A stretch of DNA of 64,000 bases from Peptoclostridium sp. (GCF_009881055.1 NZ_WXFG01000026.1:1-64000), one strand, 5' to 3'; counted from the first letter of the stretch, positions 6,762 to 41,426 are shown. Notes: generated from the sequence alone by a model not told the origin. Numbers and translations are program-made.

Positions 6762-7511
6762 ATGGCGGACAGAAAAAAGCACATATTGGGAGTTGAAAAT
6801 CTGAGCAAATCATTCGGACATGTTAGGGCAATTGAAAATGTGTCCGTTGATTTTTACGCAGGGGAGATTACTGCGATTGTTGGCGACAACGGCGCAGGAA
6901 AGTCCACGCTAATTAAGATGCTCTCGGGAGCCGAAAGGCCTGACAGAGGAAAAATATGCATAAATAAGGTGGAACACAACTTCTTCACGCCATCAGAGGC
7001 TATAGAGAATGGGATAGCGACTGTATATCAGGACCTTGGGCTTGTGAACTGCATGGACATAAGCTCGAATATTTTCCTTGGTCTGGAGCCGCTTAGAAAA
7101 GGCATATTTGTGGACAAGGCCAGGATGAAAAGGGAAAGTCGAGAGCTAATAGAAAAGCTCAGGATTGGAATATCTGACATGGACCTGCTTGCAGGAAACT
7201 TATCCGGGGGCCAAAGGCAGGCTCTTGCCATAGGCAGGGCTATAAAGCAGGGCGGCAGGATACTAATACTTGATGAGCCGACCGCAGCCATGGGGGTTAA
7301 GGAGACACAGCAGGTGATAGAGCTGCTTTTAAACCTTAAAACCCAGGGCTACACAATAATAATAATAACTCACAACATGCAACAGGTTTTTTCGCTGTCC
7401 GACAGGGTTGTTGTGATGAGGCAGGGAAGAGTTGCTGGAGACCTTTCTACAGGGGAGTCCTCGCACAACGAGGTTGTGGGACTAATAACCGGCATGGAAG
7501 GGGTAAGCTGA
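6762..7511 (+). CDS. Sugar-type ABC importer ATPase, single nucleotide-binding domain
   Basis: A 249-residue ATPase of the RbsA/FrcA group. The Walker A motif GDNGAGKST is at residues 41-49, the signature is LSGGQRQ, Walker B is ILILDEPTAAMG and the switch His is in ITHNM. Classic RbsA/MglA proteins are about 500 residues with two such domains; this one has a single complete domain, like the FrcA type, so it would work as a dimer. ATG 6762 follows a modest GAGGTC. The stop is separated from the permease start by a single base, so the two are translationally coupled. Substrate not deducible from sequence. Confidence 0.9.
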   Translation: MADRKKHILGVENLSKSFGHVRAIENVSVDFYAGEITAIVGDNGAGKSTLIKMLSGAERPDRGKICINKVEHNFFTPSEAIENGIATVYQDLGLVNCMDISSNIFLGLEPLRKGIFVDKARMKRESRELIEKLRIGISDMDLLAGNLSGGQRQALAIGRAIKQGGRILILDEPTAAMGVKETQQVIELLLNLKTQGYTIIIITHNMQQVFSLSDRVVVMRQGRVAGDLSTGESSHNEVVGLITGMEGVS

Positions 7512-28484: not shown

Positions 28485-28546
28485 TTGACATTGGCACGGT
28501 TTGGATATAAAATTTATTTTGTATAATCCTCCGACTCGAGAGTCGG
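28485..28546 (+). promoter_or_regulatory. Promoter and palindromic operator of the RND efflux operon
   Basis: TTGACA (28485-28490), 17 bases, TAAAAT (28508-28513). A second -10-like TATAAT is at 28522. Immediately downstream, CCGACTC-GA-GAGTCGG (28531-28546) is a perfect palindrome of the length bound by TetR- or MarR-type repressors. No regulator gene is adjacent; the only MarR in the region is at 39485. Confidence 0.6.
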
Positions 28547-28565: not shown

Positions 28566-29699
28566 ATGCTAAGAAGAAAAACATGTATTTTACTTGCAGC
28601 ATTACTTGCAGTGACAGCAGTTTTGGGTGGCTGCAGCAAGAAAGAGCAGGCATCGTCGGATGCTGACAAGGCCATAAGCGTGCAGGTCGAGCCAGCACAG
28701 GAGAGAGACATAACGATTACCACGGTCATTTCAGGAAAGATAAGTCCGATTCAGGAAGCTGGAGTTTCGGCAAAGCTGCAGGGTCAGATAGAAAGCGTAA
28801 ATGCGGAGATAGGCGACTATGTAAGTGCCGGGGACGTACTCTTCACTATGGACAGCGACAGCCTGAGTGCCAGCTACCAGCAGGCACAGGCTGCTTACAA
28901 TTCTTCGAGGGCAGGCTACGAAAAAGCCCAGCAGGCTTCTGCCAATGCAAAGCTTAACCTTGAGAGGAACAGAATGCTTTACGAGCAAGGCGCAATATCA
29001 AAGCAAGCGTATGAGAATATGCAGCTTCAGGCCATGGATCAGGATCTGGAGATGGCAAGATATGGCGTGGAGAGTGCTCAGGCTGCAGTCCAGAGCGCAG
29101 GCATAATGCTCGACAATGCAGTTGTCAGAGCACCTATATCTGGAACTGTTGCTCTTGTGAGCGTGCAAAAAGGCAGCATGCCGCCGCAGGGAATGCCGTC
29201 AATAGTTATAACGGATTCATCAAGAGTTCAAATGGATGCGACTGTTTCCGAGTATCTTATTAACAAAATAAAAAAGGGCGAGGAGCTTGATGTCAGGATA
29301 AAGTCGGCTTCTTCAAAACCTTTCAAGGGCATGATAACTGCCATGTCTGATGCAACTGCAAGCGGGTCAATGACGTATCCCATAAAGATAGAGCTTGAAA
29401 ACCCGCAGGGTCTGATAAAGGCCGGAATGTTTGCCGAGGTTGACATAGCTACAGAAGGCGAAAAAGGCGTGCTCAGCGTGCCGTCTGAAGCTGTGGTTGT
29501 TAAAGGCGGCGAAAAGCTGGTTTTTGTAATAAAAGACGGCAAGGCCAAGGCAAGGAAGGTTGAAACCGGAATCGATGATGGAAAATTCGTAAAGATAATA
29601 AGCGGCATCAAAAAGGGCGAGCAGATAGCAGTCAAGGGGCAGAACTATCTTGACGACGGCTCGAAGGTCAAAATAAGCGGACAGGAGAGTGCCAAGTAA
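28566..29699 (+). CDS. RND efflux periplasmic-adaptor-type lipoprotein (HlyD/AcrA family)
   Basis: A 377-residue membrane fusion protein. The signal peptide ends in the lipobox LGGC (Cys23). A lipoyl half-motif (GQIESVNAEIGDYVSAGDVLF), a coiled-coil hairpin (about residues 95-175), the matching lipoyl half (APISGTVALVSVQKGSMP) and beta-barrel domains follow. It bridges an RND pump to an exit duct. GGAGGG precedes the ATG, and its TAA overlaps the pump ATG (TAATG). Confidence 0.93.
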   Translation: MLRRKTCILLAALLAVTAVLGGCSKKEQASSDADKAISVQVEPAQERDITITTVISGKISPIQEAGVSAKLQGQIESVNAEIGDYVSAGDVLFTMDSDSLSASYQQAQAAYNSSRAGYEKAQQASANAKLNLERNRMLYEQGAISKQAYENMQLQAMDQDLEMARYGVESAQAAVQSAGIMLDNAVVRAPISGTVALVSVQKGSMPPQGMPSIVITDSSRVQMDATVSEYLINKIKKGEELDVRIKSASSKPFKGMITAMSDATASGSMTYPIKIELENPQGLIKAGMFAEVDIATEGEKGVLSVPSEAVVVKGGEKLVFVIKDGKAKARKVETGIDDGKFVKIISGIKKGEQIAVKGQNYLDDGSKVKISGQESAK

Positions 29700-32600
29700 T
29701 GAATCTTCCAAGTATGTCCGTAAAAAGGCCTGTAACGACGCTTATGTTCATGCTCATAGCAGTGCTCATAGGAACGGTATCTCTCTTCAGGCTCCCGGTA
29801 GATCTCTATCCGGAGCTCGAGGTGCCGGTGGCAATAGTGTCAGTCGACTACAAGGGCGTTGCGCCGCAGGAAATGGAGACGCTTGTCACAAAACCCCTGG
29901 AGCAGTCTCTGGCTACTGTAAGGGATCTTAAGAACATATCCTCGTATTCGAGGGAGGGCAACTCCATAATAGTTGTAGAGTTCGAATACGGGACAGACAT
30001 GGACTTTGCAGCCCTCGAGATGAGGGAAAAGGTGGACATGGTCAAGGGGGCGCTGCCGGACGATGCGTCGGCTCCGCTTGTGCTAAAGATTGACCCGAAT
30101 GCAATGCCTGTAATACAAATAGGCGCATCCTCGAGCATGGAGACGGGCGAGCTCAAGACTCTCGTTGAGGACGACATTCTTTCGAGATTTGAAAGGCTCG
30201 AGGGAGTGGCTTCGGTGAGCGTCTCCGGAGGCGAGGAGACTGAGGTGAAAATAGAGCTCGACCCTGAAAAGCTGTCTGGCTATGGGCTGTCAATCAGCGA
30301 TATCAGAAACTCCCTTAGAGCAGAGAATCTGAACCTTCCGGGCGGAAACGTAAACAACGGGGATAAGGAATTTCTCGTAAGGACTACTGCCGAGTTCAAG
30401 AGCGTAGACGAGATAAGAGAACTTCCAATATCGCTGCGCGGCAATGGCGTTGTTAGGCTCTCGGACATAGCCTCCGTAAAGCTGGGCTACAAGGAGCAGA
30501 CAAGCCTTTCGAGACTCAACGGGAAAAACAGCATAGGAATTGCAATAACAAAGCAGTCGGTGGCAAACACTGTTACTGTTGCAAAAAACGTGCTCGAGGA
30601 GCTCTCGAGCGTCAGGCAGGACCATCCGGAGATAGAATTCGTAGTCGGCTCGGACCAGTCGGAGTTCATAAACAAGTCGATAGACAACGTGACGTCGAAT
30701 GCAGTGGCTGGCGGTCTGCTTGCAGTAGTGGTGCTATTTTTGTTCCTCAGGAACATAAGGTCGACTTTCATAGTCGGAATAGCTATACCGATATCCATTA
30801 TTACGACTTTTGCGCTCATGTATTTCAACGGGCTTACAATAAACCTCATATCGCTTGGAGGACTGGCCCTGGGCATAGGAATGCTGGTGGACAACTCAAT
30901 TGTAGTGCTTGAGAACGTATACAGGTTCAGGGAGGAGGGCTACAGCAAGCAGGAGGCTGCGGTCGCAGGAGCCAAGGAGGTTGCGATGGCAATATCCGCA
31001 TCTACTCTCACTACTGTGGCCGTGTTCCTGCCTATAGTTTTTGTTCAGGGCTTTACAGCGATAATATTCAAGCAGCTCTCGTTCACTGTGGTATTTTCGC
31101 TGCTGTCATCGCTTGCAGTTGCACTGACGGTGGTTCCCATGCTGGCGTCGCAGGTGCTTGAGGTGGGAGAGGTCAAGCAGAGAAGGCACAAGGGAGTTGG
31201 CATAGGCAAATTCCTGGACATGTTCTCGAATTTCATTGATGCCGTTGACAGCAAGTACAGCAAACTGCTCCACTTTGTGCTGTCGCACAGGAAGACAACT
31301 GTCCTCACGGCCATAGGTATATTCGTGGCATCCATGATATCTGTAGCGTTTGTAGGAGGAGAGTTCTTCCCCAAGGAGGACCAGGGGCAGTTTACTGTGA
31401 CCATAGAAACGCCTTTCGGCACCAGCCTTGAGGACTCGGACGCATACGTGCAAAGGATTGAGGAGATAGTCGAGGAAATACCGGAAAAGGATAAGGTGTT
31501 CTCAAGCGTAGGCTCTACAGAGGGCTTCAGCCTCACAGCCACAAACTCCTCAACTGTAAACGTAATGCTTGTAAATCAGAAGGACAGAAAGCGCTCGACG
31601 GAGCAGATTGTTGAGGAGGTCAGGAAAAAGGCACAGGACATTGCAGGCGCAAAGATTACTGTGACTGAGGCTTCCAGCATGGGAATGGGGCCGACAGGCT
31701 CGGCAATAGAAATAGAAATAAGAGGCGACGACATAGACATACTCAAGGGCATAGGAGCCGATATTGAGGAGATAATCAAAAATGTTCCCGGCACGGCTGA
31801 GGTGTCAAGCAACACCAAGGAAGGGGATCCCGAGGTGAGGGTTTCTGTGGACAGGAACCGAGCGTCGTATTACGGTATAACAGCCAGCGAGGTTGCAAGC
31901 GCGCTGGAGGCATCTGTGGAAGGTGTCAAGGCAACGACACTCAAGACGGGTAGCGACGAGATAGACGTAAACGTATCAATGAACGACAGGGTGAAAAACT
32001 CAGTCGAAAACATGAAGCAGATACTCATAAGCTCGAATTCCGGAACTTCTGTGGCGCTTGGCCAGATTGCGGAAATAGGCTACGGCAACTCACCGACCCA
32101 GATAACAAGAATTAACCAGACCAGGACTGTGAGCGTGGGCTCGCAGCTCAGCGGAAGGGACCTCAAATCGGTGACCGACGAGATAGAGGCAAAGCTAAAG
32201 GGCTACCAGCTGCCTGCAGGATATTCATACGAATTCAAGGGGCAGCAGCAAGACATGATGGAGGCCTTTTCGAGCCTTTTCCTGGCTCTGGTTCTGTCTA
32301 TAGTAATCATATACATGATACTGGCGTCCCAGTTTGAATCTCTCATCCACCCGCTCACGGTAATGCTTTCGGTGCCGTTTGCGCTTTCGGGAGGATTCAT
32401 GGCGCTCTTCCTGACGGGACGCGCGCTTTCAGTTCCTGCTTTCATAGGCGTCATAATGCTGGCGGGCATAGTCGTAAACAACGCCATTGTAATGGTGGAC
32501 TTCATAAACCAGCTAAGGAGCAGGGGAATGGAGCGGAACGAGGCGGTCGTGAAGGCGGGCTTTACAAGATTCAGGCCGATACTTATGACCACGCTTACAA

Positions 32601-32815
32601 CGCTTCTTGGACTGCTGCCGCTTGCGCTGGGAATAGGGGAAGGAGCAGCCACACAGGCTCCTATGGCGACCGTTGTAATCGGAGGACTGTCGCTTTCGAC
32701 GCTCCTGACGCTTGCGTTCATACCGGTGGTCTATACTATATTTGATGATTGGACAGTAAAAATTAGAAGTTTTGCAGAAAAAGTGGGTATAATAAGAGAC
32801 AGAAAAGGGGTGTAA
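29699..32815 (+). CDS. RND-family efflux transporter (AcrB/SwrC-like)
   Basis: A 1038-residue pump of full RND length with twelve transmembrane segments and two large extracytoplasmic loops. It starts MNLPSMSVKRPVTTLMFMLIA. In TM4, GMLVDNSIVVLEN has one Asp where AcrB has two, as in the SwrC-type pumps of Firmicutes. TM10 carries GVIMLAGIVVNNAIVMVDFI. It is driven by ion antiport and exports amphipathic compounds; substrate unknown. It is translationally coupled to its adaptor and followed by a TolC-like gene. Confidence 0.95.
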   Translation: MNLPSMSVKRPVTTLMFMLIAVLIGTVSLFRLPVDLYPELEVPVAIVSVDYKGVAPQEMETLVTKPLEQSLATVRDLKNISSYSREGNSIIVVEFEYGTDMDFAALEMREKVDMVKGALPDDASAPLVLKIDPNAMPVIQIGASSSMETGELKTLVEDDILSRFERLEGVASVSVSGGEETEVKIELDPEKLSGYGLSISDIRNSLRAENLNLPGGNVNNGDKEFLVRTTAEFKSVDEIRELPISLRGNGVVRLSDIASVKLGYKEQTSLSRLNGKNSIGIAITKQSVANTVTVAKNVLEELSSVRQDHPEIEFVVGSDQSEFINKSIDNVTSNAVAGGLLAVVVLFLFLRNIRSTFIVGIAIPISIITTFALMYFNGLTINLISLGGLALGIGMLVDNSIVVLENVYRFREEGYSKQEAAVAGAKEVAMAISASTLTTVAVFLPIVFVQGFTAIIFKQLSFTVVFSLLSSLAVALTVVPMLASQVLEVGEVKQRRHKGVGIGKFLDMFSNFIDAVDSKYSKLLHFVLSHRKTTVLTAIGIFVASMISVAFVGGEFFPKEDQGQFTVTIETPFGTSLEDSDAYVQRIEEIVEEIPEKDKVFSSVGSTEGFSLTATNSSTVNVMLVNQKDRKRSTEQIVEEVRKKAQDIAGAKITVTEASSMGMGPTGSAIEIEIRGDDIDILKGIGADIEEIIKNVPGTAEVSSNTKEGDPEVRVSVDRNRASYYGITASEVASALEASVEGVKATTLKTGSDEIDVNVSMNDRVKNSVENMKQILISSNSGTSVALGQIAEIGYGNSPTQITRINQTRTVSVGSQLSGRDLKSVTDEIEAKLKGYQLPAGYSYEFKGQQQDMMEAFSSLFLALVLSIVIIYMILASQFESLIHPLTVMLSVPFALSGGFMALFLTGRALSVPAFIGVIMLAGIVVNNAIVMVDFINQLRSRGMERNEAVVKAGFTRFRPILMTTLTTLLGLLPLALGIGEGAATQAPMATVVIGGLSLSTLLTLAFIPVVYTIFDDWTVKIRSFAEKVGIIRDRKGV

Positions 32816-32821
32816 CATATT

Positions 32822-34003
32822 ATGACATTGTCAAAACGAATTAAAAGAAGTGCAATAGCTCTCATGGCCGGGTTTCTTGTGCTGGCCTCGAGCATAATGA
32901 CTTATGCGCAGGAGACTCCTGCGGCGGAAGTGGTTGCCCCTGCAGTGGCGCCAGCTGCAGAAGCAGCGAAGCCTGTTCAGCTTTCGCTTGAAAAGGCTAT
33001 AGAGGATGCGCTCAAGAATTCGAGCGCAATTGAGATTGCGGATCTCGAGCTTGAAACCAAGACGGTGGAGCTTTCACAGGCAAAAAGAACAGAGTCGAAA
33101 TACTCGGACAGCGATTCCTCGACATACCAGTATCTCAGCGGAACGCTAGAAGGCTTCCAACTGGACAAGAAGGTAAGCTCGACGGCGGCGACTTACGCAC
33201 TCGAAGAGGAGAAGATAAAGAGGGAAAAAAGCATAGAAGACATAAAATACAATGCCACAAGGGCTTACTACGGGGTCATGAGCGCAAAGGGCGCTTTGGA
33301 CGCCGCAACTGACAACCTGGACAATACGAAAAGAAGCCTTGATATAGTGAAGAAAAAGTATGAGCTGGGGGTTGTCTCAAAGTCGGACCTGATAATAGCG
33401 CAGCTTTCGCTCGATGAGGCTGTTTCGACAATGGAGAACGCCCAGAACACATATCAGAATGCTGTAATGGGGCTGAATCTTGTAATGAACTATCCGCTGC
33501 AGACTGAGCTTGTGCTTACAAGTCCGTACAGCATGGCCAAGTTTGCGGCCAACGTAGAAGAGGATATAAAAGCAGCATTTGAAAAAAGGCTGGACGTCAA
33601 GAGTGCGCAGCACGGTGCCCAGCTGGCACAGCTTGATCTTGACGCAACCAAGGTGGTATACACTCCAAATACATTCGTATACAGGAAAAAGGAGCTTGCA
33701 CTCAAGAAGGCCCAAAAGGCACTCGAGAGCATGAAGCTTTCTGTGGAGTATGGAATAAGGGGCAAATACAACGACATAAGCACCAACCTTAGAAATATAG
33801 ACCTAAAAAAGGCCAAGCTTGAGAAGGCCAAGGAGCAGCTGAGGCTCACCGAGCTTTCTTATGACGTAGGATACAAGACTATACTAGATGTGAGACAGGC
33901 AAGAAACATACTATACTATGCCCAGATTGACTATGACGGCGAGATTGCCGCATACAGCCTTTCTGTGCTTGACTACAACAAGGCTGTAAACATAGGCGAC
34001 TAG
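32822..34003 (+). CDS. TolC-like outer efflux component without beta-barrel segments
   Basis: A 393-residue secreted protein. A Sec signal peptide ends around TYAQ (residue 30). Two helical-hairpin repeats of TolC type follow (VQLSLEKAIEDALKNSSAIE at residue 52, YELGVVSKSDLIIAQ and YDVGYKTILDVRQARN). The links between the long helices that form the outer-membrane strands in TolC are very short: about 35 residues in repeat 1 (residues 88-122) and only about 10 in repeat 2 (278-287). This suits a coiled-coil conduit through the wall of a single-membrane cell. Third gene of the RND operon. Confidence 0.8.
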   Translation: MTLSKRIKRSAIALMAGFLVLASSIMTYAQETPAAEVVAPAVAPAAEAAKPVQLSLEKAIEDALKNSSAIEIADLELETKTVELSQAKRTESKYSDSDSSTYQYLSGTLEGFQLDKKVSSTAATYALEEEKIKREKSIEDIKYNATRAYYGVMSAKGALDAATDNLDNTKRSLDIVKKKYELGVVSKSDLIIAQLSLDEAVSTMENAQNTYQNAVMGLNLVMNYPLQTELVLTSPYSMAKFAANVEEDIKAAFEKRLDVKSAQHGAQLAQLDLDATKVVYTPNTFVYRKKELALKKAQKALESMKLSVEYGIRGKYNDISTNLRNIDLKKAKLEKAKEQLRLTELSYDVGYKTILDVRQARNILYYAQIDYDGEIAAYSLSVLDYNKAVNIGD

Positions 34004-34021
34004 CACAGCTAAATACGGGAC

Positions 34022-34055
34022 TAAAGGAGAAGTATACGCTTCTCCTTTAATTTTA
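34022..34055 (+). terminator. Terminator of the RND operon
   Basis: TAAAGGAGAAG (34022-34032) and CTTCTCCTTTA (34039-34049) form a perfect 11-bp stem, followed by ATTTTAT. Confidence 0.85.
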
Positions 34056-34123
34056 TAGAAATATCACAAAATTTTTTTGAGTTTTTGCATTGCCGGGCGG
34101 ATACTTTCCAGCCGGCGGATTAA

Positions 34124-34152
34124 TTGATTTTGTTTTGGCAATAGAGTATAAT
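34124..34152 (+). promoter_or_regulatory. Promoter of the SLH-domain protein gene
   Basis: TTGATT (34124-34129), 17 bases, TATAAT (34147-34152). It gives a leader of about 60 bases with GCAGGAGG before the start. Confidence 0.7.
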
Positions 34153-34221
34153 CAAAACAAGTCAGTCATGCACTAACAAAATGGACAGAACAGCAAATTA
34201 TTATTTTGCAGGAGGTCAGAT

Positions 34222-36081
34222 ATGAAAGATTGGATGAAAAGGGCAGTGGCCATAGCAATAGCTGTAATATTCGTGCTCAGCACAATAATGGTTTCATTTG
34301 GAGCCGAAATGAGCGACGTTTCAAGTCACTGGTCGAAGGCATATGTAAATGAGATGGTAAGCAAGGGCATAGTTACAGGCTATACGGACGGTACATTCAA
34401 GCCTGAAGCGCCTGTAAGCAGGCTCGAGGCAATAGTAATGATATCAAGGCTCTATTCAGCTGCCGAGATCGACAGCGTATATGCAAGCTCAAAAGCCACG
34501 TATGAGGCGGATTTCAAAAAATACGGAATACCGTCATGGGCGCAAAAATCTCTCGTATTCACAATACAAAAGGGCCTGGTTCCAAGCAGCATACTCACTA
34601 ATGTTATGAGTGGAGACAAGCAACTTGAGGCAAAGCGCTACGAGATTCCAGTATACCTTGGCAGGGCTCTTGGCTTTAGCGACGAGAGCAAGGTGTACGT
34701 TCTTGATTTCGAGGATGCAGACAAAATACCAAAGAGTGCGCTTCCATACATAGGCTATATGGCGGACAAGAAGATTGTAAGCGGGCAGACAAACTATCCG
34801 AGCACGAGCGTGCTATTCAACTCTTATGGGATTGTCAAAAGAGGCGAGATGGCAAAGATGCTCAAGCTCACAGCAGACCTTATGGGAAAAACAAGCCAGC
34901 CTGTTGTAACGCCAACAGACGAAGCCGTCATATCGATAAAGGGCACAGTGTACTCTGTATCTCAAAGCAACGGCAGCATAACGCTCATAGTTGAAAATTC
35001 GGCAGGAACAAAGCTTACGTTCAAGAACACTTCAAGCGCTGTATCTGTAATGTTGGGTTCAAGCATAGGCAAGATTTCAGACATTTCAAGCGGAAGGGAA
35101 GTTGAGCTTGAGGTTTCGGGCGAAAAACTGTATTCAGTGAAGATCAAAGAGACCAGCTCAAGCCTGGTGGGCTATTTCCAGAAGACCTACTTCAAGCTTG
35201 AAAGCGACGGCTCCAACAGAGCGTATGTCGTAATAGAAGTCGACGACAGTGACAGGGAATATCCTGTGGGCTCAAGCATAAAGGTGACTCTGGACGGCAA
35301 GGCTTCAAATGTGTACAGCCTCAGCTCTGACGATAAGGTTTCTTTCAAGGTTGTAAGCGGAGCGGTGACCGAGGTGGAGGCGTTCTCCAAGAGCGGAAGC
35401 GCAACTGGATATGTCAAGAAGATAGATTCAAACGGCAAATACATGATAATCACGGACAAGAAGGATGAGGACAAGGAGTACAGATTCGACATAGACTCCA
35501 AGGCTGATGTTGAAAGGAACGGCGAAGATGCCGAGATTTCAGATATCAGAGTGGGCGATGACGTGACACTTTCGCTCAAGTACGCTGTTATTACGGCGAT
35601 AGACGCAGAGAGCGTTACAAAGAAGGTTACGGGCGTGCTCAAGGAGATAATAATATCAGGAGAGCCGAAGATAACTATACAGGACAAGGACAAGAAGCTG
35701 GTGACATATCAGCTATCTCCTGAATTTGAGGTGGAAATCGACGGCAAGAGCGCGGGGCTTTACGACCTCAGGCTAAACTACGAGCTTGTGCTAAGGCTCG
35801 AGACAGATATTGTAAAGACAATAGAGGCTGACGACCAAGTTGTAATATCAACAATAACAGGCGAGATAACAAGCATAAGCACCAGCGACGATACAATAAA
35901 GCTGACAGACAGCTCTACAAAAAAGACGGTATACGTAAGATACACCTCAAGCACTACGCTTGAGGACTACGACGGAGACACTCTAAGAGAGAGCGGCTTC
36001 AGCGAGGGCGACATAATATCGGTGATAGGCAAGGACAATGTGGGCTCGTTCAGCGCCGACAGGATAATAAAGATAAAATAG
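34222..36081 (+). CDS. S-layer homology (SLH) domain surface protein
   Basis: A 619-residue exported protein. The signal peptide ends near VSFGAE (residue 29). Three SLH units follow at about residues 30-75 (SDVSSHWSKAYVNEMVSKGI, GYTDGTFKPEAPVSR), 90-150 and 170-215; they would anchor it to pyruvylated wall polymer. The remaining 400 residues are Ser/Asp/Lys-rich beta domains without cysteine. No C-terminal barrel of the OmpM kind is visible. It is monocistronic between two efflux operons and could be an S-layer or wall-associated protein. Confidence 0.88.
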   Translation: MKDWMKRAVAIAIAVIFVLSTIMVSFGAEMSDVSSHWSKAYVNEMVSKGIVTGYTDGTFKPEAPVSRLEAIVMISRLYSAAEIDSVYASSKATYEADFKKYGIPSWAQKSLVFTIQKGLVPSSILTNVMSGDKQLEAKRYEIPVYLGRALGFSDESKVYVLDFEDADKIPKSALPYIGYMADKKIVSGQTNYPSTSVLFNSYGIVKRGEMAKMLKLTADLMGKTSQPVVTPTDEAVISIKGTVYSVSQSNGSITLIVENSAGTKLTFKNTSSAVSVMLGSSIGKISDISSGREVELEVSGEKLYSVKIKETSSSLVGYFQKTYFKLESDGSNRAYVVIEVDDSDREYPVGSSIKVTLDGKASNVYSLSSDDKVSFKVVSGAVTEVEAFSKSGSATGYVKKIDSNGKYMIITDKKDEDKEYRFDIDSKADVERNGEDAEISDIRVGDDVTLSLKYAVITAIDAESVTKKVTGVLKEIIISGEPKITIQDKDKKLVTYQLSPEFEVEIDGKSAGLYDLRLNYELVLRLETDIVKTIEADDQVVISTITGEITSISTSDDTIKLTDSSTKKTVYVRYTSSTTLEDYDGDTLRESGFSEGDIISVIGKDNVGSFSADRIIKIK

Positions 36082-36086
36082 TATAG

Positions 36087-36134
36087 CGAGCCAGGGGTAT
36101 GATATGTAAGATGATCCTCTTGGCTCGTTTTTTC
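36087..36134 (+). terminator. Terminator of the SLH-protein gene
   Basis: CGAGCCAGGGG (36087-36097) pairs with CCTCTTGGCTCG (36116-36127) with a bulge, followed by TTTTTTC. Confidence 0.85.
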
Positions 36135-36147
36135 TATGCCATGGTTA

Positions 36148-36184
36148 CACAAGGGGACGGTTCTGATGTCCCAGATTCTTTGTG
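36148..36184. repeat. Imperfect inverted repeat, REP-like
   Basis: CACAA...GGGAC and GTCCC...TTGTG (36148-36184) form a two-part stem with the internal GGGACGGTTCTGATGTCCC. GGGAC-GGTTCT-type palindromes are common dispersed repeats in Firmicutes; a mobile origin here is inference. Confidence 0.4.
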
Positions 36185-36201
36185 CGAAATTAGTTAATAT
36201 A

Positions 36202-36230
36202 TTTACAAATATGCCGTATGGGAATATAAT
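36202..36230 (+). promoter_or_regulatory. Promoter of the HlyD/ABC-2/MarR/TolC operon
   Basis: TTTACA (36202-36207), 17 bases, TATAAT (36225-36230), immediately followed by TAACATGTAAAC. A TGTAAA facing the TTTACA makes an inverted pair that a regulator such as the operon's MarR protein might use. Confidence 0.7.
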
Positions 36231-36266
36231 TAACATGTAAACAATTTATCGGAGGAGATGAAATTT

Positions 36267-37286
36267 ATGAGCATGAAAAAGGCGTCAGCAGTCCTAATGG
36301 CATTGGCTTTGATTTTTTCGATGAGTGGCTGCTCGGGCACGGATTCAAAAAAAGACGACGAGCTCCACGGGACTATAGAGGCTGTAGAGGTAGACATAAA
36401 CTCCAAGATACCGGGCAGGGTGGCCGAAGTGCTTGTGGAGGAGGGCGACAAGGTGAATAAGGGCGATGTGATTGCAATAATCGACTCCGACGAGCTTGTT
36501 GCAAAGAAAAACCAGATGCAGGCGCAGGTGGACGCGGCGCTGAGCCAGTACAACGCGGCCATGAGCCAGGTGGATGCGGCGAACGCACAGCTTGAGAAGG
36601 CGCAAAATGGAGCCAGGAGGCAGGACGTGGCAAAGGCTCAGGCGGCCGTGGATTTCATACAGCAGACCTACGAAAGGGTCGAGAGACTCTATGAAAAGGG
36701 CGCCGTATCCAGACAAAAAAGGGACGAGGTTAAGCTGCAGCTCGATGTGGCCAGGCAGGATCTTGACATGGCGCTCGAGGGCGCCCGCGCAGAGGACATA
36801 AGCGGAGCGCAGGCTATGGCGGCATCGGCAATGAACATGGCGTCGGCGGCAAAGGCCAAGTATGACCAGGCGCAGGCAGGCTTGGACGAGGTTATGGCCT
36901 ACATCGACGATACCACAATCGAATCTCCAATAGACGGCACGGTGACTACTGTCGCTGCAAATGCAGGAGAGCTTGTATCTACGGGGATGAGCATTGCTGT
37001 TGTCAGCGACACTAGCGACATGTGGATCGAGGTCGATGTTGAGGAGACAAATGTCGAAAAGCTCAAGGAAGGCGATTATGCGCAGGTACAGGTGCTGGCC
37101 CTGTCGGGGAAACAGCTTGAGGCAAAGATTGTCAGCATAAACAAGAACCCTGATTTTGCAGTCAAGAAGGGCACCGATGAATCGGGCAACTATGACATCA
37201 TCTCATACGGAGTCAAGCTAAAGCTCGAAGGAGTGGCTGAGGGCATAAGGCCGGGGATGAGCGCCAAAATAAAATTCAAGGAATAG
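36267..37286 (+). CDS. HlyD-family membrane fusion lipoprotein (YbhG-like)
   Basis: A 339-residue adaptor. The signal peptide has lipobox SMSGC (Cys22). The lipoyl half IDSDELVAKKNQM, a long Ala/Gln-rich coiled coil (about residues 85-215), and the second lipoyl half ESPIDGTVTTVAANAGELVS follow, resembling E. coli YbhG. GGAGGAG at 36251-36257 abuts ATG 36258, so I use ATG 36267 at proper distance. It feeds the double permease 13 bases downstream. Confidence 0.9.
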   Translation: MSMKKASAVLMALALIFSMSGCSGTDSKKDDELHGTIEAVEVDINSKIPGRVAEVLVEEGDKVNKGDVIAIIDSDELVAKKNQMQAQVDAALSQYNAAMSQVDAANAQLEKAQNGARRQDVAKAQAAVDFIQQTYERVERLYEKGAVSRQKRDEVKLQLDVARQDLDMALEGARAEDISGAQAMAASAMNMASAAKAKYDQAQAGLDEVMAYIDDTTIESPIDGTVTTVAANAGELVSTGMSIAVVSDTSDMWIEVDVEETNVEKLKEGDYAQVQVLALSGKQLEAKIVSINKNPDFAVKKGTDESGNYDIISYGVKLKLEGVAEGIRPGMSAKIKFKE

Positions 37287-37299
37287 GCGGTGCGCAAGT

Positions 37300-39492
37300 G
37301 TGGAATGGCTAAAAAGAAGGTACATGGACTTTGTGATGGTCCTGCTGATACCGCTCATAGTCACAGCGGCGCTGTGCGTCATGTTCCAGGACAGGACGAT
37401 AAAGGAGATTCCAACTGCCGTATACCTGGGTGACAACAGTGCTCTTGCAAGAAAGATAGCGGGATATTTCGACGATTCCGAGACATTCGACATCAGATAT
37501 TATGCTTCGAGTCCCTACGAGATTGAGGAGCTCATCGAAAAAGGTGATGCCAATTTCGGGCTTGTTATTCCCGAAGGCTTTGAGAGGGACATAAAAAGCC
37601 AAAAGCAGACTACGGTGCTTACTGTAATAGACGCCAGCAGGCTTGCAATGGCGTCTGCGGCTAAGATAAAGGCGTTCGAGATACTAATGAGCGTCAAGGC
37701 GGGAGCGCTCATGCAACTTCTGCAGGCGAAGCTTTCGCTGAATTCGCAGCAAGCGCTTCACACTGCGCTTGCGGTGGACATGAAAAGCAGGCTGCTCTAC
37801 AACGAGCTGAGGGACTACAAGTCGTTTCTCATGCCGGGGATTATGGCAGGCATACTCCAGTCGGGCCTTGCAATGGCTGCTGCCGCCAGCAGGAGAAGCG
37901 ATAAGGAAGGCCCAAGGCGGGTGCTCACCCGAATAGGCTATTTTTGGGCGCTTGGCTTTTCAGCTCTTGCTATTAACATAGCGATGCTGGCAATTGTATT
38001 CGGGGTGCCGCTGCGAGGAAGCGCTGCAGCCATAGTGGTGCTCTCAGCTGCGTTCGCCCTGTGCGTATCGGCGATGGGGGTGGCAATATCGTGCGTAGTC
38101 AAAAATAGCCTCACTTGCGCTCAGGCTGCTGCTGTGCTTTTTCTTCCCAACACAATGCTATCAGGCTACACATGGCCGCTTGGGGCAATGCCGCATGCGT
38201 ACGAAACGGCCGGCAGGTTCATACCGTACACAAGGTACGCCGAGAGCCTTCGGGATATGATGATAAAGGGCGAATCGCAGAGCCTCCACTCGGACATGCT
38301 GTATTTGCTGCTGGTCGCGTGCGCGGTGCTTGCAGCAGCCCTCGTGTTTGCGCTTAAAAGGCCCCAGGGCATATCGGGCAAGCTGGAAATCGACACGACA
38401 AAGCGGAGCATTGCAATACTAACGGCAGGGCCCATATTTTTCACGCTGCTCTTTGGCGGCATATATCTTAATGACTACTACAACTCAATACCCTTTGCAG
38501 TGAGCGACAACGACAATTCGCAGCTTTCAAGGATGATAGTCTCGCAGTTCGAAAGGAGCGAAAAGTACGAGCTTGCAGGCTATGCTGATTCGCCGGCAGA
38601 GCTCAAGTCGATGCTGGATTCGAAAAAGGCCCATATAGGGCTTTATATACCAGCTGATTTTGAAAAAAACGTCAAAGCGCTCAAATCGCCAACGGCAGCC
38701 GTAATAGTCGACGGCTCAAATATTGCGGTGGCAAACAACGCGCAATCCAAGGCAACCGAGATAATCTCGACAATAAGCGCCGGAGCGAGCATAAAGGCCA
38801 TGGAGGCCAGGGGCTTCACGCCTGATACGGCGCTAAACCTGGCTAAAATAATAAACATAGAGTCGCGGAACCTTTACGACCCCAAGCTGACGTACAAGAT
38901 GTACATGATGCCAGGCTTCATAGTTATACTGGTGCAGCAGCTTTTCATGTCGGCGCTGACTCCAAAGCTCCTGGATAGGGGCAGGATATCATTCAACGCC
39001 GCAGGATTCTCTCTGCTTGGAGCCCTCGTATACTCTGTGTGCATGCTGCTGGGCAGGCATGCTTTGGGTATGGATTTTACGGGCAGCATAGCAACGGCTT
39101 CGCTGTATGTGTTTTTGATGCTCCTGGCGCTGAGCGGAGTGGCCGCAATAATAGCCTTCTCGTTCGGGGATGCGCTCAGGGCCACTCAGCTGTGCATGAT
39201 GCTCTCGATGCCGACTTTCCTGACGGCCGGTTACGTTTGGCCGCTTGAGCAGATTGATCCTGCGCTGAAAGCAGTTGTTGGAGCTGTCTGGCCGGCGATT
39301 TATGCAGTATCGCCCATAAGGGACGTGCTCATAAAAAACGCGCCGCTTAATCAGTTTACAGTGGAGCTCTTGTCGCTCCTTGCATTCGGCCTGTTTTGGG
39401 GCGCGGCGGGTTATTATGTTTCGAAAAGGACTGGCCACATAAAAAAAAGAAAGCCGTCAGAGCAGGCGGCGATGGAGGTAGGGCATGAATAA
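37300..39492 (+). CDS. Fused tandem ABC-2-type permease
   Basis: A 730-residue membrane protein made of two homologous halves (about 1-360 and 365-720). Each has an N-terminal membrane segment, an extracytoplasmic domain (AHIGLYIPADFEKNVK in half 2, NFGLVIPEGFERDIK in half 1) and about five further membrane segments beginning near MMPGFIVILVQQL and LMPGIMAGILQSG. This corresponds to the YbhS and YbhR permeases of E. coli joined in one chain. No ATPase gene is in the operon, which is unusual for an ABC exporter. The GTG start at 37300 follows GGCGGTG. It overlaps marR by 8 bases. Confidence 0.85.
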   Translation: MEWLKRRYMDFVMVLLIPLIVTAALCVMFQDRTIKEIPTAVYLGDNSALARKIAGYFDDSETFDIRYYASSPYEIEELIEKGDANFGLVIPEGFERDIKSQKQTTVLTVIDASRLAMASAAKIKAFEILMSVKAGALMQLLQAKLSLNSQQALHTALAVDMKSRLLYNELRDYKSFLMPGIMAGILQSGLAMAAAASRRSDKEGPRRVLTRIGYFWALGFSALAINIAMLAIVFGVPLRGSAAAIVVLSAAFALCVSAMGVAISCVVKNSLTCAQAAAVLFLPNTMLSGYTWPLGAMPHAYETAGRFIPYTRYAESLRDMMIKGESQSLHSDMLYLLLVACAVLAAALVFALKRPQGISGKLEIDTTKRSIAILTAGPIFFTLLFGGIYLNDYYNSIPFAVSDNDNSQLSRMIVSQFERSEKYELAGYADSPAELKSMLDSKKAHIGLYIPADFEKNVKALKSPTAAVIVDGSNIAVANNAQSKATEIISTISAGASIKAMEARGFTPDTALNLAKIINIESRNLYDPKLTYKMYMMPGFIVILVQQLFMSALTPKLLDRGRISFNAAGFSLLGALVYSVCMLLGRHALGMDFTGSIATASLYVFLMLLALSGVAAIIAFSFGDALRATQLCMMLSMPTFLTAGYVWPLEQIDPALKAVVGAVWPAIYAVSPIRDVLIKNAPLNQFTVELLSLLAFGLFWGAAGYYVSKRTGHIKKRKPSEQAAMEVGHE

Positions 39493-39967
39493 AAAGGAGC
39501 TTTCCGGTTTTTTGGAGACATATGATTTTGTAGAGGACATGTCTGGCAAGACAATAGTCAATCTTATAAAGACTACCGCTATAATGAGGGCGGTGTATGA
39601 CGAGCTTTTTCATAAGCATTCGATTTCAGAGCCCAAGTTCCTGGTGCTGCTGCTGCTCTATCAGGAGCCTGAGGGCATGGCCTTTAGCGAGATAGGCAGG
39701 AAACTGCTTGTGTCCAGAGCCAACATGACAGGGCTCATAGAGCGCATGATGAAGGAAGGTCTCGTAGAAAAAATGCTGAATCCGTCAGACAAGAGGTCGA
39801 CCAAGGCAATTCTTTCGCAAAAGGGACGCGACTTATTTGAAAGCGTAAAGGATGGCCACATAGAGTTCAGCAGGAGGATGACGGCAGGGATAGACAATGA
39901 GGAGAAGGAGCTGCTGAACAGGCTGCTCGTAAAGCTGCAAAACGACATAGTAGATTCATTTGAATAG
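39485..39967 (+). CDS. MarR-family transcriptional regulator
   Basis: A 160-residue winged-helix regulator with the MarR pattern SEPKFLVLLLLYQEPEGMAF, IGRKLLVSRANMTGLIERM (recognition helix) and the DKRSTKAILSQKGRDLF wing. MarR proteins are dimeric repressors released by small, often toxic, ligands. It lies inside the efflux operon between permease and TolC-like genes, overlapping the permease end, so it probably regulates the promoter at 36202. Confidence 0.93.
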   Translation: MNKKELSGFLETYDFVEDMSGKTIVNLIKTTAIMRAVYDELFHKHSISEPKFLVLLLLYQEPEGMAFSEIGRKLLVSRANMTGLIERMMKEGLVEKMLNPSDKRSTKAILSQKGRDLFESVKDGHIEFSRRMTAGIDNEEKELLNRLLVKLQNDIVDSFE

Positions 39968-39983
39968 AAGCGGGGGTGTTTGT

Positions 39984-41426
39984 ATGAATATAAAAATGAA
40001 GATAAGCTGTCTTGCCATGGCGGCAATTATGGCGGCTTCAAGCTGCGGCGCCGCAGTCTATGCAAGTGGTCAGGATGAGGTTGCAACACAGGAAACGGTG
40101 CTGAGCATAGACGTTGAAGGAGCAATAGAGCTGGCCATGCAAAACAACATGGACCTGAAATCAATAGCTGTAGACACAAAATCGACAGCTCTCTCAAGGG
40201 AGATGGCTGAAAGGGCCGAGAAAAAGCTAAGCGACGGGAAAAGCAGGCTCAGCGACGCCTCCGAAAGCGTCGGGGCTCTCGAGCAGCTTGCGGGCAAGCT
40301 GCCTGAAGGAGTTAAGCTTGGCGACATCGCAGGAAGCAACGAAGCAGTAGCAGGTCTTTTAAAGGAGCATCCTGAGTTTGCGGGGCTTGACAAGGCCGGA
40401 CTTGAAAAAAACGTGATAAATCCCGCCAGAGATGCAATTGAATCGGGAGACGTAAAGCTGGAGCTTGGCATTGAAGATGTCAACGATTCGATAAAGGACA
40501 AGCTGGACATAACGGCGTCGAGATATCTCTCCATGAGTTCATCCACAAAGCTCCTTACGACCATGGCGCAGCTGCAGGAGAGCGTCACAGGCTCGGGCTA
40601 CAAAATAGCAAGAAAAAACGTGGCTCTGCTCACAAGAAAAAGGTATTATGACGTCCTCAAGGCCAGCAGGATAGAGGAGATAAAGAGGCTGGCCCTGGAG
40701 AGGGCCAGAAGCCAGTATGACATGGCCAAGGCGTCATACGAGGAGGGCATGAAGGCAAAGGACGACATGCTGCTCTCGAGGGTGCAGCTGAATCTCTTTG
40801 GAGCAGCATACACAAAGGCTCAGATGGACAGGAGGAACGCTGAGATAGAGCTCAAAAGGGTCATGAACATAGACATGGACACAAAGCTTAGCCTCACAGA
40901 GAACTTTTCAACAGAGCCGCTACAGGCGGATCTGAATGAGGGACTCGCCCAGGGACTTGAAAAGAGGCTGGAGATGCAAAAGCTCATGGCACAGTACATC
41001 GTAGACAAGCTCAATTTCGAGCTGACAAAGGGGCCCTACCCTGAAAACACATACCAGTACAAGGAGGCACTAGTGAAGCTTGAAAAGGCGCAGGCCGAGC
41101 TTGAAAAAGGGCAGGTGGACACGGGGGCCCAGATAAGACAGTCATACGAAAGTCTTGTAAGCGCTACGCAGATGCTCGAGTATACACAGGGCATAGTGGA
41201 GGATGCGAGAGAGTCGCTTGCCATAGCACAGCTGCGTTATGACGAAGGCTACTCGTTTGAAACCTCGGGCATAAAATCAGCAGGGCTTTCGGATTTTGCA
41301 GGCACTATAGTGGAGGTCATAGCGGCGCAGGAGAGGCTTGCAGACGTTGAAGAAAAGACGGTCGACATAATATACAGCTACAACCTTGCAAAGGACAAAT
41401 ATCTAAATGACATAGGAACATACTAA
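39984..41426 (+). CDS. TolC-like efflux component, second copy
   Basis: A 480-residue secreted protein. The signal peptide ends near VYASG (residue 28). A TolC-type repeat begins at SIDVEGAIELAMQNNMDLKS. A non-barrel insert of about 100 residues, charged and Gly/Ala-rich, occupies the first link (about 80-185). The second link is only 15 or so residues (347-362). Long coiled coils make up the rest. As in the copy at 32822, the strands needed for an outer-membrane barrel are missing. The start is ATG 39984 after GCGGGGGTG, not the in-frame TTG at 39960. Confidence 0.78.
   Translation: MNIKMKISCLAMAAIMAASSCGAAVYASGQDEVATQETVLSIDVEGAIELAMQNNMDLKSIAVDTKSTALSREMAERAEKKLSDGKSRLSDASESVGALEQLAGKLPEGVKLGDIAGSNEAVAGLLKEHPEFAGLDKAGLEKNVINPARDAIESGDVKLELGIEDVNDSIKDKLDITASRYLSMSSSTKLLTTMAQLQESVTGSGYKIARKNVALLTRKRYYDVLKASRIEEIKRLALERARSQYDMAKASYEEGMKAKDDMLLSRVQLNLFGAAYTKAQMDRRNAEIELKRVMNIDMDTKLSLTENFSTEPLQADLNEGLAQGLEKRLEMQKLMAQYIVDKLNFELTKGPYPENTYQYKEALVKLEKAQAELEKGQVDTGAQIRQSYESLVSATQMLEYTQGIVEDARESLAIAQLRYDEGYSFETSGIKSAGLSDFAGTIVEVIAAQERLADVEEKTVDIIYSYNLAKDKYLNDIGTY

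Follow-up and report, generated by a model that had tools for sequence, protein, structure and literature searches.

TolC is the textbook outer-membrane duct. The locus described here encodes two TolC-family proteins (OEP 1 and OEP 2) beside adaptors and permeases in a bacterium with one membrane, and therefore bears on how tripartite pumps could function without an outer membrane. The window that we analyzed, a stretch of 64,000 nucleotides, is part of a 2.04-Mb, 99.7% complete Peptoclostridium sp. genome, to which, judged by the OEP locus, Peptoclostridium litorale and Tepidibacter species come closest among named organisms. Stubenrauch et al. 2022 (PMC8809574) had already described TolC-like proteins from 12 monoderm Firmicutes; they presented a homology model for C. 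difficile with a gap in the barrel and proposed an S-layer location. Priority for monoderm TolC-like proteins, their reduced barrel and the S-layer proposal is theirs.

The genes lie on the plus strand in the order adaptor, RND permease, OEP 1, SLH protein, second adaptor, fused ABC-2 permeases, MarR regulator and OEP 2. Behind a promoter-like site (28485..28513; 11/12, a consensus match only), the RND operon encodes a lipoprotein-type adaptor (HlyD/RND_mfp; 28566..29699; lipobox LGGC read from the sequence), a permease matching the AcrB/AcrD/AcrF family (29699..32815), and OEP 1 (32822..34003; 393 aa), a predicted barrel-less protein of the RND type with a Sec-type signal. By sequence comparison, the permease is an HAE-1-like RND protein, from a family of drug and amphiphile exporters, and the adaptor, permease and OEP genes of the HAE-1 tripartite set stand together in one operon. 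The SLH-domain protein (34222..36081), a conserved neighbor of barrel-less OEPs, comes next. The second operon encodes a HlyD-like lipoprotein adaptor (36258..37286), two ABC-2 permeases fused in a single gene without an ATPase domain (37300..39492), a MarR-family regulator (39485..39967), and OEP 2 (39984..41426), a predicted barrel-less protein of the ABC type with 480 aa, or 488 aa from an alternative TTG at 39960. Promoter-like sites before 28566, 34222 (34124..34152; 10/12) and 36258 (36202..36230; 11/12), together with a terminator-like hairpin of 12 pairs downstream of OEP 1 (34022..34049), suggest three transcription units, all of these elements being consensus matches only. An Rfam scan across the window gave 0 matches. 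A third barrel-less OEP (371 aa) is encoded on contig 22 of the same genome (L055:2443-3558), with genes for a histidine kinase and an adaptor nearby; an SLH gene is absent from the stretch retrieved there.

Predicted fold of OEP 1 and OEP 2

Both TolC-family reading frames are real, and each exceeds the Pfam OEP cut-off. The profile (PF02321; cut-off 22) matches two stretches in each protein, at 96.4 and 59.5 bits, and leaves the N-terminal half of every repeat uncovered in both. Single chains were modeled with AlphaFold2 (pLDDT 82 for OEP 1 and 77 for OEP 2). When the models were used in structure comparisons, all top matches were OMF channels, with Z from 13.7 to 24.9; the next unrelated rows were at about 9. 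Compared with 1ek9, OEP 1 gave Z 21.1 over 321 residues (4.6 A) and OEP 2 gave Z 23.9 over 325 residues (4.3 A).

In the OEP 1 model, the two repeats contain helices 68-93/116-181 and 257-276/285-348. Because the helices have 64-66 residues, or about 10 nm, the tube is expected to be about as long as TolC. The repeat-1 link consists of residues 94-115 (33101..33166), a mostly low-confidence loop with two short bridges and without barrel strands, which replaces the first strand pair in the model. Residues 277-284 (33650..33673) form the repeat-2 link and replace the second strand pair, according to both the model and a profile alignment. In the OEP 2 model, the corresponding link is residues 350-356, and thus the modeled repeat-2 link has 7-8 residues in both proteins. 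Repeat 1 of OEP 2 carries an inserted stretch (about residues 106-182; 40299..40529), delimited by the model and by the anchor census, with predicted helices at 112-157 and a low-confidence portion at 155-186. As a separate observation, the class of OEP 2 is longer than OEP 1 by about 16 residues at the adaptor-side tip of repeat 2 (residues about 423-438).

A profile of OEP 1 relatives, aligned with TolC, has 17 residues where TolC has 68, which is a net deletion of 51 residues in repeat 2. Measured from anchor to anchor, repeat 2 spans 17 residues in both OEP 1 and OEP 2 versus 68 in TolC, and repeat 1 spans 33 residues in OEP 1 and 117 in OEP 2 versus 50 in TolC. Four strands per chain, as in the 12-strand outer-membrane barrel, were found in neither protein by models, alignment or the census described below, and neither single-chain model shows barrel strands. 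These predictions and alignments show OEP 1 and OEP 2 as putative helical channels of the OEP/TolC superfamily that lack the outer-membrane barrel and retain the alpha-barrel and the adaptor-docking end.

A preliminary description of the locus had proposed TolC-like coiled-coil repeats without a barrel, which Pfam, the models and the structure matches bear out, and a short repeat-2 link in both proteins, which agrees with the modeled lengths and with the roughly 51 additional residues in TolC. Its account of repeat 1 stands for the insert of OEP 2, which is predicted to be partly helical, but needs correction for OEP 1, whose link of about 22 residues appears unstructured rather than merely short.

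Barrels and Omp85 across the Bacillota

Omp85 is absent from the Peptoclostridium sp. genome and from 40 relatives, and neither LpxC nor TamB was found in the former. The same searches for Omp85, LpxC and TamB gave matches in 7, 4 and 6, respectively, of 14 control genomes. The missing markers show that the organism has one membrane, in line with the earlier premise of a single-membrane cell.

To relate barrels to Omp85 more broadly, we used 299 Bacillota genomes. Omp85 was detected in 76 of them, in one weakly, and 75 were used. HlyD adaptors and an FtsX-like protein are among the weak PF02321 matches in the relatives, and PF02321 tallies were therefore not taken at face value. Instead, we used a census of link lengths and a junction-crossing profile (A4). 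Barrel-less proteins match this profile of the barrel-less repeat-2 hairpin across the junction, and full OEPs match it only from position 35 or later.

Among the matches listed, 51 of the 52 genomes with full-length OEPs are Omp85-positive; the assembly of the Omp85-negative exception consists of about 450 contigs and might be contaminated. Junction-crossing matches occur in at least 67 Omp85-negative genomes, so that the barrel-less subfamily anticipated in monoderm Firmicutes does exist, and in at least 22 Omp85-positive ones. In 66 barrel-less OEPs from Omp85-negative genomes, repeat-2 links range from 14 to 18 residues, and repeat-1 links from 21 to 143. Because the repeat-2 link is exactly 17 residues in 61 of these 66, its shortness is far beyond chance. 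By comparison, repeat-2 links are 46 or more in 32 full OEPs (TolC, 50 in repeat 1 and 68 in repeat 2). In two proteins from Omp85-negative genomes (G017 and G025), the repeat-2 stretch is longer, at 41 and 87 residues. The former (L042:6140-7456) combines a short repeat-1 link with a charged, proline-rich 41-residue stretch and has no SLH partner. Much of the monoderm class shares a tip motif, Y-x-x-N-T-Y/F-x-Y, which reads YTPNTFVYR in OEP 1 (33659..33685) and YPENTYQYK in OEP 2 (41037..41063). Two OEPs of other families are fused N-terminally to the copper-amine-oxidase N-terminal domain PF07833 (L040:6438-7994 and L063:5577-7139).

The barrel-less OEPs of Omp85-positive Bacillota form a second class, with links of about 13 and 16 residues; in 26 such proteins, the repeat-1 link is 13 and the repeat-2 link is 15-17. 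Twenty of the 26 are encoded in tandem with another OEP, often by overlapping genes. At L165, L166, L182 and other Omp85-positive loci, the barrel-less OEP gene lies just before or overlaps that of a barrel-bearing OEP, and these tandems sit in RND operons or near other adaptors. We therefore rejected barrel loss as a trait of monoderms only: given at least 22 Omp85-positive genomes with the barrel-less class, the form is not confined to single-membrane cells, and the absence of a barrel does not on its own amount to an adaptation to one membrane. The preliminary description had interpreted the proteins as parts of tripartite pumps fitted to a single membrane. This idea is partly supported at our locus by the complete RND operon and the lack of both barrel and Omp85, but it cannot be generalized from the missing barrel.

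Because barrel-less OEPs in Omp85-positive genomes are mostly paired with a barrel-bearing one, they need not be the terminal duct. A barrel-less OEP could instead be an accessory pump segment or regulator, for example, a sleeve between the adaptor and another exit component, or a hetero-oligomer partner, and in monoderms the other component would have disappeared or given way to the SLH protein. Gene order is consistent with this alternative, as are the tandems themselves. Two Omp85-positive RND operons that we checked have the order adaptor-RND-short OEP-long OEP-TetR, and monoderm operons from several families have the order adaptor-RND-OEP-TetR-SLH (two regulators checked), such that the SLH gene of monoderms occupies roughly the position of the barrel-bearing OEP gene of diderms. 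However, the monoderm class differs from the tandem class in its repeat-1 link and tip motif, and a tree of the helical core, which has long branches and unresolved deep ones, does not place the two barrel-less classes in one clade. We consider an accessory role unlikely, although it is the most probable of the alternatives.

The SLH protein and the position of the tube

The SLH domains of the protein encoded downstream of OEP 1 score 68.2 bits (cut-off 20.8), and OEP 1 is followed by this gene in P. litorale, Tepidibacter genomes and one further relative as well. More broadly, an SLH gene lies on the same strand within 1.1 kb in 28 of 49 Omp85-negative entries (27 of 48 after removal of one duplicate genome). 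In the remaining 21, no SLH gene was present within 1.1 kb in the retrieved stretch, and none was present within this distance in any Omp85-positive locus. All 75 Omp85-positive genomes bear SLH domains, and genome-level presence is therefore uninformative for diderms. For this reason, SLH evidence was used solely within Omp85-negative genomes and by gene adjacency. Among Omp85-negative genomes, counted irrespective of kinship, 112 have both a hairpin match and SLH, one has a hairpin match alone, 73 have SLH alone, and 38 have neither. With strict barrel-less matches, all 67 Omp85-negative genomes among the matches listed carry SLH domains.

The C-terminal non-SLH region of the protein (34915..36078) is more discriminating. 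As a single-sequence query, it has one match in its own genome, which contains 35 SLH matches. Of the relatives that have an OEP, 16 of 17 carry the region, versus 2 of 24 of those that lack one, an association that ignores kinship; the latter two carry the partner alone, and G017 has an OEP but not the partner. We then built a profile of the region and removed the six seed genomes before counting across the phylum. A barrel-less OEP is present in 19 of the 20 genomes with strong matches, versus 42 of 198 others (Fisher 5e-11, kinship ignored), and no Omp85-positive genome is among the strong matches. Remote matches are widespread, and the boundary of the family is therefore soft. This region and the barrel-less OEPs are inherited together. 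Against a strict OEP-SLH unit, a terminator-like hairpin followed by a separate promoter-like site, both consensus matches only, lies between OEP 1 and the SLH gene.

The most likely interpretation is a pump anchored in the wall, with an SLH protein as its partner. In this scheme, the lipoprotein adaptor and the RND permease would pass substrate to a trimeric helical tube of OEP 1, which, judging by operon and fold, would open into the wall zone. Lacking a membrane anchor, OEP 1 is most likely retained by the SLH protein in the wall or S-layer zone; co-inheritance is observed, and the contact is inferred. The exit tube would thus exchange membrane anchoring for wall anchoring. OEP 2 would be the same kind of tube with a repeat-1 insert, working with its adaptor and ABC-2 permeases. 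Taken as a whole, the reading of OEP 1 as the duct of an RND pump in the wall zone, held by the SLH protein, with OEP 2 acting alike, is one that we modestly favor. More tentatively, RND pumps of monoderm Bacillota may be four-part exporters in general, with a wall-bound protein taking the place of the barrel and holding the TolC-like tube, an arrangement either derived from or parallel to the two-OEP set of diderms.

The Gram-positive wall and the zone inside it are commonly tens of nanometers thick, and it is therefore doubtful that a tube of about 10 nm crosses the whole wall, as the earlier proposal of a tube crossing the wall or S-layer would have it. In E. coli complexes, peptidoglycan lies at the adaptor-TolC junction (PMC13082787), which, with a tube of TolC length, makes a position at or in the wall plausible. 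A tube that extends into the wall, or into an SLH-anchored zone, thus appears more plausible than one that spans a thick wall. Surface proteomics of relatives supports an outer location: the surface proteome of the Gram-positive bacterium Desulfotomaculum reducens contained Dred_3141, a PF02321 protein (PMC4137172), and, according to work cited in PMC8809574, TolC-like proteins of C. difficile are shed together with the S-layer.

The pump of OEP 2 is the least certain part. The second operon contains no ABC ATPase motif pair, the sole pair within the window being at 6762-7511. The view that each OEP has its own adaptor and pump is therefore correct for the RND operon, where the set is complete, but not for the second operon, which has no ATPase gene. 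The fused permease resembles the permease part of RbbA, and an ATPase, if this pump uses one, could be encoded elsewhere in the genome. In Tepidibacter, the ABC-2 permeases are separate genes rather than fused, and an ATPase gene is present in neither arrangement. P. litorale (L127:13378-15353) retains MarR and OEP 2 and is missing the second adaptor and the ABC-2 permeases, and OEP 2 may therefore serve other pumps too.

The SLH proteins might also be cargo, or a co-regulated product, of a pump and OEP that export S-layer or wall polymers, rather than an anchor. SLH genes adjoin OEPs, OEP genomes bear SLH, and the D. reducens authors proposed a type I secretion-like complex, given the surface S-layer proteins and proteases (PMC4137172). 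But SLH proteins have Sec-type N-termini as read from their sequences, SLH occurs in 73 Omp85-negative genomes that show no OEP hairpin match, and pump 1 belongs to a family of drug and amphiphile exporters, so that we regard this explanation as quite improbable. The patchy presence of OEPs among relatives might suggest decaying, functionless remnants of a lost outer membrane, but near-constant link length, tip residues invariant across distant families, intact operons and several OEP copies per genome make this very improbable. Finally, we rejected a cryptic outer membrane with divergent outer-membrane factors as scarcely credible: only the OEP family name and fold speak for it, against three missing markers in a 99.7% complete genome and models without a barrel.

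Comparison with known systems

The proteins described here resemble those of Stubenrauch et al. (PMC8809574) in coming from single-membrane Firmicutes, in their operons with adaptor and pump, and in their reduced barrel. That study covered 12 proteins, with a single homology model, and considered S-layer presence at the level of genomes. It described the barrel region of the C. difficile protein as hydrophilic with an omission, whereas 0 barrel strands are predicted for OEP 1 and OEP 2. Our analysis adds the census of links and Omp85, the tip motif, the SLH partner family and the Omp85-positive barrel-less class; in the open-access literature, we found no paper on the partner family, a link census or this class. 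What is new is the pairing of barrel and Omp85 across 299 Bacillota, the Omp85-positive barrel-less class, and the tracking of the SLH partner. Together, the pairing, the near-constant linker and the co-inherited SLH family make the published S-layer idea testable on one gene pair. The tandem barrel-less and barrel-bearing OEPs also bear on the loss of the outer membrane in the phylum and on gain or loss of the TolC barrel.

OEP 1 and OEP 2 share with E. coli TolC and PF02321 the two-repeat helical fold, short equatorial strands, helix lengths, and adaptor and RND partners, but they lack the beta-barrel, and their host lacks an outer membrane. As in AcrAB-TolC and MdtABC (HAE-1), the adaptor, RND permease and OEP genes form a single operon; unlike in those systems, the exit duct is predicted to be barrel-less and an SLH gene lies downstream. 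The second operon resembles E. coli YhiI-RbbA-YhhJ and YbhGFSR in its HlyD-like adaptor and ABC-2 permeases, and differs in having neither an ATPase domain nor an ATPase gene and in including OEP and MarR genes. A dedicated partner also has a precedent in YbjP, an outer-membrane lipoprotein that joins TolC close to the membrane end of the channel (PMC13082787), whereas the partner proposed here is an SLH protein that would contact OEP 1 in the wall zone.
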